In this document: in pieces, positions 6,467-32,851 of the stretch
How the letters are laid out: every line of letters starts with the position of its first letter
How positions within the stretch are numbered: position 1 is the first letter of the stretch
Source: Bugula neritina
Lineage: Eukaryota; Bryozoa; Gymnolaemata; Cheilostomatida; Bugulidae
Assembly: GCA_964035545.1 (NCBI GenBank)
Contig: OZ037767.1
Span: 10,530,207 to 10,594,206 of the forward strand
DNA: 64,000 nucleotides
Reading direction: 5' to 3'
Notes under the pieces: model-generated
Told to the model about the DNA's origin: nothing
Database searches by the model: none
Seen by the model: the letters and a program-made list of their open reading frames with translations, nothing else
Made by a program: the position numbers and the translations under genes

Positions 6467-9400
6467 TTAAACCAAAAAGAAAGACGCCCTGGAGTTGAAA
6501 CTATTGATGACATTGCCATCGTCATCTTCTTCTATTTTATACACATGGTTCAGTCTTTCCTCCATAGTACTAGCTATCCCAGCTTTAAACTTCACTGTGC
6601 GTTTATGTCTAGCACCATTACTGGTGAAAGCCATGCTATCTACAAGTAAATCAACTTGTATTAACATACAGTCTCTTGCTTTATGCTTGCGTTTTAGCAG
6701 ATAAAATGGGAATACAATTTAAATATATCTTTACCGGCTAGCAATTCAATTGTGAATAAGTATACAAGAAACATTTTGTTTTTATTACTTTATTAAACAA
6801 AGTAAACTACTATTAATACAATTTAACATTCAACTTGGCCGATCTATCCTAGCCAGAATAATTTCAAGATATATCTAACTTTGTACTCATAGCATTTGAA
6901 TTTTTAACTGTTACAATATGATATCAAAAGATCAGCTCACACTAGTATATGTAAACACTATTTAGCATACACTGCAGACTAGCATATGTTGCATCATCAT
7001 TCCAGAAAAGTAGGACTGTTGAAATATATTATATTTTGTTGACAGTTTATCTCTGATAGTAAACTAAGTACTCACAAGTTCCAGGCTTAGAAGCATCAAC
7101 AAAGTTGAAGTAATAGTGATCAATTTCACTGATAAAAATCAACACTGTTTTGTTTATGATATCTTTTGTGTTGGGAGGTAAGTAATAGAGTTCAAAATCT
7201 ATTAATCCATCAGGCATAAATTCACAGCTGGAATAAAAAAGTCAACATGCATAAATTCAATTTAAAAGAAAAATTATCAACTTATATGTTTATAGACCTA
7301 TATTGCATTAAAAATACATCATCATAACTTTTGTACTACAACTGTAGTATTAAGTTATTGGATTATCACTGCATTATTGTATTTTATTATTGTATTTCAT
7401 TATTGTATGGTATAACTAGAGCGGCACTCACTAGAACTTGGCGCCAACTGTTTGAACATTTTGTTGGTAACTTTGAATGTCGGAATTAAGATCATCAAGC
7501 TTTATGGTAGTCGACAGTGCAGCATTTTCCTTCTTTTCCAAATCCTTAAAAAGCACAAAAACAGCTCAGGTTTTGGAAAACAAGTTTGGATGAGATATAG
7601 CTTTGAAAAAATTGGCTAAAAAATTTATAAATTGTAATTCAATGTTTGTTACTCGTACTTCCTGATAAAAAAAATTGAAGTTGCAATTTGTTTAACACTA
7701 CAAGACTTTTGTGGGTTTCTATGAGAACATCTGATAGAAAAGATCTTTTAAGCAAGCAAAGGACCTGTTTTTATTGTAGCAAATTATCAACGATGACTGA
7801 ATTCCCTTTCTAACACCGCTTTTACCAGGAGAAAACCATTGATTTCATGTTTACTAAGCCAGTGCTATAACCACTAGACCACTGTTGCTCTTTTTTGCAA
7901 GCAATTACAAAAATAGTCAATTTTACTACAGTGTCTATACTCTATAGTAACATACTTGTGCTATATGAAAAATAGTAATGTTCAAAACACATGTATGCAG
8001 GTCAGAAATATTTATTTCCCAATAGTCTATAAACAGCGACTCACCTTTAGATAAAAATGAGGTGGCACTGGTACCAACATGTTCATACCAGAGTAGATAT
8101 TGTATGTTCCGTAGAGAGAAGGGGGAAGATATTGTTTGTCTATCACACTATGCAGTATATCTTGCCAGTCATCTCTATCTAAGTGCTGAGTGTGAAATCC
8201 TTTACGGTTCTCAAAGAGAGGCAGATAATATCGATCCAGCATCTTTTTACATCTACCACCTAACAGCACAGCAATAAATATATACTGTATACATGGCCAC
8301 AGCACACTCAGCTGTGTCTATAGCAACAATATCTATATTAATAATGTGTCTATAGCAACAAAACCTATATTAATAATGTGTCCATAGCAACAATATCAAA
8401 AACAACACTGTGTCCATAGCAACAGTATCTATAACAATACTGTGGCTATGACAACAATATATTCTAGTAATTTACCCATTTTAACAGTGTATACAAATTT
8501 ATCTATAGTCAGAGCATACACAAACATAATTTATATGTAGCAACACATATATATGCACAGGTGCAAACATTACATTATATTGAACCATATCAACAGTGCA
8601 AATATGTGCTCTTTGGACTTAATAAAACTTTCTTTGCTTACAAGCTAAACTTTCACTGTACATTCCTAGTTTTATATCATAAAATATAAGATTTGATGAC
8701 AACCTGAATGCTTCAATATACTTTATATCACAATGTAGCTGGTGTACTTTTAGCATGTACACTATAAAACACCAGACAAACTTGATATACACACCATGTA
8801 TAATGTAGACATTCTTGAACAGGCAGGGATAATTCCTACATAACAGCAGGAGAGAGGCATGAAACCAGCCCAGACCTTGCACAGCTTTAGATTCGAGGTG
8901 GTTTAAAAACTGGCTACAGTCTATAACAAGGATGGAGCTGTACCCTCCCTATATTTAAACAGAACAATACACAAATACAGTTAACACCTGTTCAAAGCTA
9001 AAAGCTCAACATTTAAGCAAAAATAAAAGACTTTTTTTAACTCTAAACATAATAAAGCCTTATAAGTTCAATATTAAAAAAGTAAACTTTTAATATCTCT
9101 TTACCTCCTTAGACAAGTGCTCTACCATTTCAAAAAGATACACCATATGCAGCATAAACTGGGAACCAGTACAGCTCTTTGCTAAGCCATTGAAATCTAT
9201 TTTATCAAACTGACAAACAAATGTGGGGTTATCAGCCCGATCAGCACCTGTACACTCGATGATGTTTCCATGCTGCAACATAATAACACTCAATATACAC
9301 TCAATATAATATTTCCATGCCACAAGATAATTTAATATAAATGCGCTGAATAAAACTTAGGTGAAGATCATGCAAGGTAGATCTTGTAAGCAGGCACATA

Positions 9401-32851: not shown

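Follow-up and report, generated by a model that had tools for sequence, protein, structure and literature searches.

Predicted CatSper gamma subunits with a long, SEC14-type cytosolic tail in the bryozoan Bugula neritina

CatSper is the calcium channel that steers the swimming of sperm, and its auxiliary subunits normally carry short tails: rodent CATSPERG (P0004), as judged by eye, ends about 70 residues past its membrane helix, in line with what the first-pass annotation of the present locus had assumed. SEC14L proteins are soluble. According to excerpts of PMC9205950, mammalian CatSper units are paired below the membrane with a stripe spacing of 17.6 nm; portions of the same paper and of PMC12638846 describe how CatSper components in the cytosol connect channel pairs and stabilize the rows, and characterize one of them, ARMH2, as an armadillo-like helical protein. 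For plants, an extract of PMC10152663 describes a SEC14-GOLD protein, PATL2, which contacts the intracellular variable region of the transporter IRT1 and binds alpha-tocopherol. In excerpts from a CatSper survey across Metazoa (PMC6660944), the word "bryozoa" is absent. Our literature search returned nothing joining CatSper with CRAL-TRIO, nor CatSper with bryozoans, and the CatSper and SEC14 papers among the matches listed look unrelated by title and abstract start. Here we describe a Bugula gene in which a CatSper gamma ectodomain and a SEC14-type domain appear to share one reading frame. Both halves belong to known families, and their join is undescribed so far as searched.

The window, i.e., the whole 64-kb stretch of DNA (64,000 nucleotides) that was analysed, is for the most part occupied by two minus-strand paralogues, which we call copies A and B (Table 1), and contains no match to any Rfam family. 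Genes were modelled with a self-written program that combines splice-site scores with codon conservation on pairwise alignments, using two copies to begin with and four later. Run on copy A under the guidance of the paralogues and blind to the exons proposed in the first-pass annotation, it arrived at the same start (32851), the same end (6467), the same number of exons (48) and the same junction exons (21455-21593 and 21236-21378). The predicted length is 2426 residues, compared with the 2432 implied in the first-pass annotation, once two exon ends in copy A had been shifted by hand to the splice sites of the sister copies, as was one in copy C. The model contains no internal stops, and its 47 introns comprise 46 of the GT-AG type and one GC-AG. 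Read from the N terminus, the protein consists of a signal-peptide-like start, a gamma ectodomain, a single helix and about 1330 cytosolic residues, the latter made up of nine 50-residue repeats and more sequence of helical character, followed by CRAL-TRIO and, at the very end, a GOLD-like segment. Earlier splice models (first 58 exons for copy A; next 52 and 50 exons for A and B, respectively) were dropped, since they contained intron-derived peptides; the early model of copy B also obscured the CRAL-TRIO domain, for which it gave only CRAL_TRIO_2 at E 0.13, and was superseded by the four-way models. Two repetitive features were noted along the way. An array of the hexamer CTACCA (143.8 copies, window positions 26443-27303) lies in intron 13 of copy A and reaches the edge of exon 13, and translated self-comparison revealed a long inverted repeat, each arm spanning about 2 kb, at about 58578-60539 and 61581-63987.

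Table 1. Positions of the modelled genes and of their domains; copies A and B are numbered within the window, copies C and D within the assembly.
Feature	Coordinates	Strand	Extent or basis
Copy A, complete gene, predicted CatSper gamma/SEC14-like fusion	6467..32851	-	48 exons, 2426 aa
Copy A, ectodomain with an N terminus that by eye resembles a signal peptide (exons 1-22)	21690..32851	-	residues 1-1078
Copy A, CATSPERG Ig-like domain (PF22851)	23639..24697	-	about residues 767-848; E 3.1e-13
Copy A, CATSPERG_C (PF22846) and membrane helix	21546..23114	-	about residues 912-1097; E 4.4e-26
Copy A, single membrane helix VLLGTMLVMTMYIILFYFW	21546..21689	-	by eye, and copy B alignment to CatSper gamma2
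Copy A, nine-unit repeat region (units of about 50 aa)	14684..18313	-	residues 1219-1662; looks helical
Copy A, CRAL_TRIO_N-like segment and CRAL-TRIO	8084..10565	-	residues 2016-2268; PF00650 slightly under its cut-off, SEC14L4 profile
Copy A, GOLD-like C-terminal domain	6470..8083	-	residues 2269-2426; by homology to Watersipora, weak from Bugula sequence alone
Copy B, tandem head-to-tail paralogue of A, like architecture	34842..57050	-	49 modelled exons, 2437 aa
Copy B, CATSPERG C-terminal domain and membrane helix	47142..48622	-	Pfam; 7eeb_F alignment
Copy B, CRAL_TRIO_N-like, CRAL-TRIO and GOLD-like tail end	34845..38199	-	PF00650 24.3 bits, E 3.1e-5
Copy C	G000:C3:2238542-2261120		48 exons, 2441 aa
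Copy D	G000:C3:2262683-2282156		48 exons, 2437 aa

That paralogues keep the exon structure and the open frame, as had been claimed for this locus, is true of copy B and also of two further copies elsewhere in the genome: C and D form a convergent pair on the same chromosome, at 2.238-2.283 Mb and thus 8.3 Mb from A and B. Domain order, splicing and frame are common to all four copies, whose proteins are 83-91% identical in pairwise comparison. The models of B, C and D contain no internal stops, and their introns are GT-AG apart from one GC-AG in D. Parts of copy B are doubtful, namely an 8-base exon (51977-51984) and, in exon 52075-52218, a terminal poly-valine stretch that stems from a tandem repeat; copy C contains a similarly doubtful poly-valine run of the same origin. 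In copy B, the array responsible (52012-52110) is related to CTACCA but shorter, and it overlaps modelled exon 13. Between C and D, synonymous divergence is uneven, at 0.28 and 0.22 in parts of the ectodomain and 0.19 in the stalk between helix and CRAL-TRIO domain, against 0.03-0.09 in the helix, CRAL-TRIO and GOLD-like segments. This suggests gene conversion between these two copies, the CRAL-TRIO and GOLD-like tracts lying near their facing 3' ends.

The four models scored 1573-1629, compared with 280-309 (35-42 exons) on the antisense strand of the same alignments. Gap lengths were multiples of three in 15 of 17 cases inside exons and in 497 of 1721 elsewhere (six pairs, which are not independent), and identity was 0.87-0.93 in exons versus 0.66-0.77 in introns in the three pairs measured; all three controls are partly circular, since paralogue conservation is part of the model input. 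Over six pairs, dN/dS was 0.16-0.23 for the whole protein, 0.22-0.29 for the N-terminal ectodomain, 0.07-0.15 for CATSPERG_C, 0.15-0.34 for the 59 codons of the helix and juxtamembrane segment, 0.14-0.21 for the stalk, 0.09-0.23 for CRAL-TRIO and 0.09-0.20 for the GOLD-like part. Purifying selection acts across the fusion, and all segments look constrained.

In the first half of the protein of copy A, PF22846 scored 92.4 bits (cut-off, 27.6) and PF22851 scored 50.2 bits (cut-off, 27), and both Pfam models also matched copy D and the early model of copy B. The PDB chain closest to copy B was mouse CatSper gamma2 (7eeb_F, E 2.7e-28), together with 9ubw_F (E 5.6e-28), with the alignment extending up to the helix, and hhalign aligned 303 columns to rodent CATSPERG at 30% identity with a probability of 99.1%. 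A type I topology, with a signal peptide and one helix directly past CATSPERG_C, was read by eye in copy A. Rodent CATSPERG additionally carries precomputed PF22840 and PF15064 matches; neither of these N-terminal CATSPERG models matched the N-terminal ∼760 residues of the Bugula protein at E values up to 10, and we take the region to be present but diverged. The predicted ectodomain is that of CatSper gamma. Of the original "CatSper beta/gamma" assignment, the family and the gamma part were borne out by the profile searches, which did not point to any unrelated family, and the beta part was not. The CatSper beta model PF15149 matches a separate locus (C7:929799-931362) with three exon matches, two of them over the cut-off. 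The presumed membrane exon there is followed, by eye, by about 60 residues and then a stop, so that the CatSper beta of Bugula looks like ordinary CatSper subunits.

Further support for the join came from a second bryozoan. When residues 884-2559 of the early copy B model were used as the query in a search of 5.8 billion proteins, the sole match among 7969 scored candidates (45% identity) was an uncharacterized, NCBI-annotated protein of 1437 residues from Watersipora subatra (P0001), in which PF22846 and PF00650 occur in one chain. This protein, which was no input to the Bugula gene models, is collinear with them through part of CATSPERG_C, the helix, the stalk, the CRAL-TRIO domain and the GOLD-like end. 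Its first residue is an internal Met inside CATSPERG_C, at a point equivalent to 25 bases into exon 21 of copy A, and it looks like a 5'-truncated gene model. What this one model shows in a single chain is consequently the helix and tail and not the full ectodomain. A second search, like the first word-based and confined to a capped set of scored candidates, gave P0001 again and, apart from it, three isoforms of CATSPERG from a single rodent. The proposal that a CatSper ectodomain, a helix and a SEC14/GOLD-like tail lie in one frame is thus supported at the level of sequence in all four Bugula genes; in the other bryozoan, the same domain order is seen starting within CATSPERG_C.

We also searched the genome assembly (215,847,546 bases in 295 contigs) for related loci. 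PF22846 was found at four loci, all of them fused (four of four candidates scored, E up to 10); a working CatSper gamma, if present, is therefore a fused one so far as this search sees. With the Watersipora protein as the query, 45 matches were obtained, all within the four fused genes (32 of 87 candidates scored). CRAL-TRIO matches also occur at other loci of the assembly. The four strongest of these matches (L001-L004) lie on the small contigs C171, C77, C235 and C139 and read through in-frame TAA and TAG codons but not TGA, as expected for the ciliate nuclear code, and these contigs are probably ciliate cobiont DNA.

Between the helix and the CRAL-TRIO domain, the tail extends over 916-927 residues. 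This stalk had no match in a PDB profile search and nothing over the cut-off in Pfam. Its nine repeats follow, by eye, the pattern L..KA...LY..L...L..A......L..AI..F....I.D, and the counterpart in copy B lies at 41632-46184 on the minus strand. The repeat model derives from copy B, and the Bugula copies match it by construction or near kinship; in the Watersipora protein, which stands outside the model, eight of the nine units were recognized at E values below 1e-5. The unit perhaps represents an undescribed repeat family.

At the far end of the tail, the assignment is firmest for CRAL-TRIO. PF00650 reached 21.0 bits (E 3.2e-4) in copy A, slightly under the cut-off of 22.6, and exceeded it in copies B (24.3), C (26.2) and D (27.4) and in the Watersipora protein (32.9). 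A profile combining the tails of B, A, D and Watersipora matched SEC14L4 (E 2.6e-7), SEC14L2 (9.1e-6), SFH5 (5.3e-5) and SEC14L3 (7.5e-4), and its alignment to SEC14L4 and SEC14L2 begins within the CRAL_TRIO_N-like segment, for which Pfam gave no CRAL_TRIO_N match in the Bugula copies or Watersipora. The Watersipora protein aligned to SEC14L4 at E 4.3e-10, extending over most of the GOLD part, and 0 of 2000 shuffled sequences reached its score against the SEC14L4 GOLD domain; for copy B alone, 1474 of 2000 did. A profile of the GOLD part retrieved no PDB chain and gave E 0.11 in hhalign, and the Pfam GOLD model PF01105 yielded E 0.025, under the cut-off, for Watersipora and no match for copies A, C and D. 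We call the Bugula end GOLD-like because it shares 39% identity (copy B) with the Watersipora end and stands in the SEC14L domain order; this assignment is less sure than that of CRAL-TRIO and convincing only in the Watersipora copy. Of the three domains originally listed for the tail end, CRAL-TRIO thus stands on the PF00650 and SEC14L4 matches, and support for CRAL_TRIO_N and GOLD is less firm. In these tails, two residues of the CRAL-TRIO consensus, the E of YPE and the P of naP, have given way to others, and a working lipid pocket is therefore not assured.

The reading that we favor, with a probability of roughly 0.6, is that the fusion of CatSper gamma is real and that its tail would serve as a built-in cytosolic docking and organising module of the SEC14 type. 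The conserved ectodomain would place gamma in the sperm CatSper complex, thereby adding a long cytosolic arm to every channel. The distal SEC14-GOLD module might then attach to the inner leaflet or to an adjacent complex, and, once docked, bind or present a hydrophobic lipid and anchor, space or tune the channel. By analogy, the arm would do in cis the job of separate mammalian cytosolic partners such as C2CD6 and EFCAB9-CATSPERzeta-ARMH2, and its docking could be likened to that of the soluble PATL2 on IRT1.

The strongest alternative accepts the fusion and assigns the arm a purely structural role: the CRAL-TRIO/GOLD-like fold would be a protein-binding head without lipid exchange, and the arm would cross-link neighbouring CatSper units or connect these units with the axoneme or the cytoskeleton beneath the membrane. 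Such a role would suit the replaced consensus residues, the Bugula PF00650 scores that straddle the cut-off (21.0-27.4 versus 22.6 bits) and the composition of the tail, two thirds of which are repeats and other sequence without a lipid-binding family. It would also suit the linkage of mammalian units in pairs with their 17.6-nm stripes (PMC9205950, as excerpted). However, CRAL-TRIO is almost as constrained as CATSPERG_C (dN/dS, 0.09-0.23 versus 0.07-0.15; lower in one of the six pairs, about equal in one and higher in four), and the top PDB matches are SEC14L proteins, a fold that a scaffold would not need. We regard this explanation as possible but rather unlikely. The docking-module reading can, conversely, be taken one step further, in that the head would bind phosphoinositide, sterol, tocopherol or a similar lipid and its occupancy would be relayed through the repeat arm to channel gating or row assembly. 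We put this forward as a tentative and somewhat doubtful extension; the "lipid sensor under the channel" of the first-pass annotation is likewise a putative one.

A different alternative holds that the locus makes two products, an ordinary short gamma whose end lies in intron 24 and an internally started protein comprising the helix and tail, with the full fusion being a minor form. Intron 24 is 339-2653 bp long and contains AATAAA or ATTAAA in all four copies, and read-through past exon 24 leads to a stop within 3-48 bases; the internal Met at which the Watersipora model begins could be seen in the same light. Such hexamers are, however, common in DNA of 33% GC in our judgement, and this Met lies in the middle of a domain, as it would if the gene model had been cut short. 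The junction itself also speaks for continuity. Exon 23 of copy A (21455-21593) codes for most of the helix and the first residues of the cytosolic tail, and introns 22 and 23 (copy A numbering) measure only 76-114 bp and lack AATAAA and ATTAAA in all four copies, so that there is no room for a gene border. Moreover, frame and splice phases are retained across the junction in every copy. We therefore consider two separate products improbable. Intron 24 of copy A, at 2653 bp, is longer than those of the other three copies (339-712 bp) and contains a plus-strand ORF of 242 codons (19305-20033) with a reverse transcriptase match (E 3.7e-4, below the cut-off), likely reflecting a retroelement insertion.

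Finally, a chance join or annotation artefact, in which the gene finder merged neighbouring genes, might be suspected of a home-made model that takes paralogue conservation as input but is very improbable, given that Watersipora, annotated by others, shows the same join, that one exon carries most of the helix together with the tail start, and that the antisense models scored so far below the sense ones.

If the fusion is real, it amounts to a natural experiment in which a lipid-binding type of fold has been welded to a core channel subunit, hinting at what may happen below gamma, and it makes direct action of lipids or SEC14-type proteins on CatSper a testable question. The arrangement could let membrane lipids or a tail scaffold act directly on the channel. 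Should the lipid-regulated version hold, bryozoan sperm would read the state of their membrane lipids with their calcium channel, and the four gamma copies would be tuned variants.

Compared with known systems, the Bugula protein shares with mouse CatSper gamma2 and CATSPERG the Ig-like and C-terminal domains, the single helix and about 300 collinear residues at about 30% identity; it differs in continuing past the helix, where the rodent protein soon ends, for about 1330 residues with repeats and a SEC14-type domain. Its far end resembles SEC14L2 and SEC14L4 in the order of CRAL_TRIO_N-like, CRAL-TRIO and GOLD-like segments, in the PF00650 matches and in the SEC14L4 profile match. In contrast to the SEC14L chains of about 400 residues, however, the Bugula module forms the distal end of a type I membrane protein and is diverged, with consensus residues changed. 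C2CD6 and EFCAB9-CATSPERzeta-ARMH2 are, in the excerpts consulted, likewise cytosolic parts that organise CatSper rows, but they are separate polypeptides for which those excerpts mention no SEC14 or GOLD domain. PATL2 on IRT1, as far as the extract describes it, offers the same kind of module, SEC14-GOLD, on the cytosolic face of a transporter in the plasma membrane; there it is a separate protein, whereas in Bugula it appears to be fused to the channel subunit itself.
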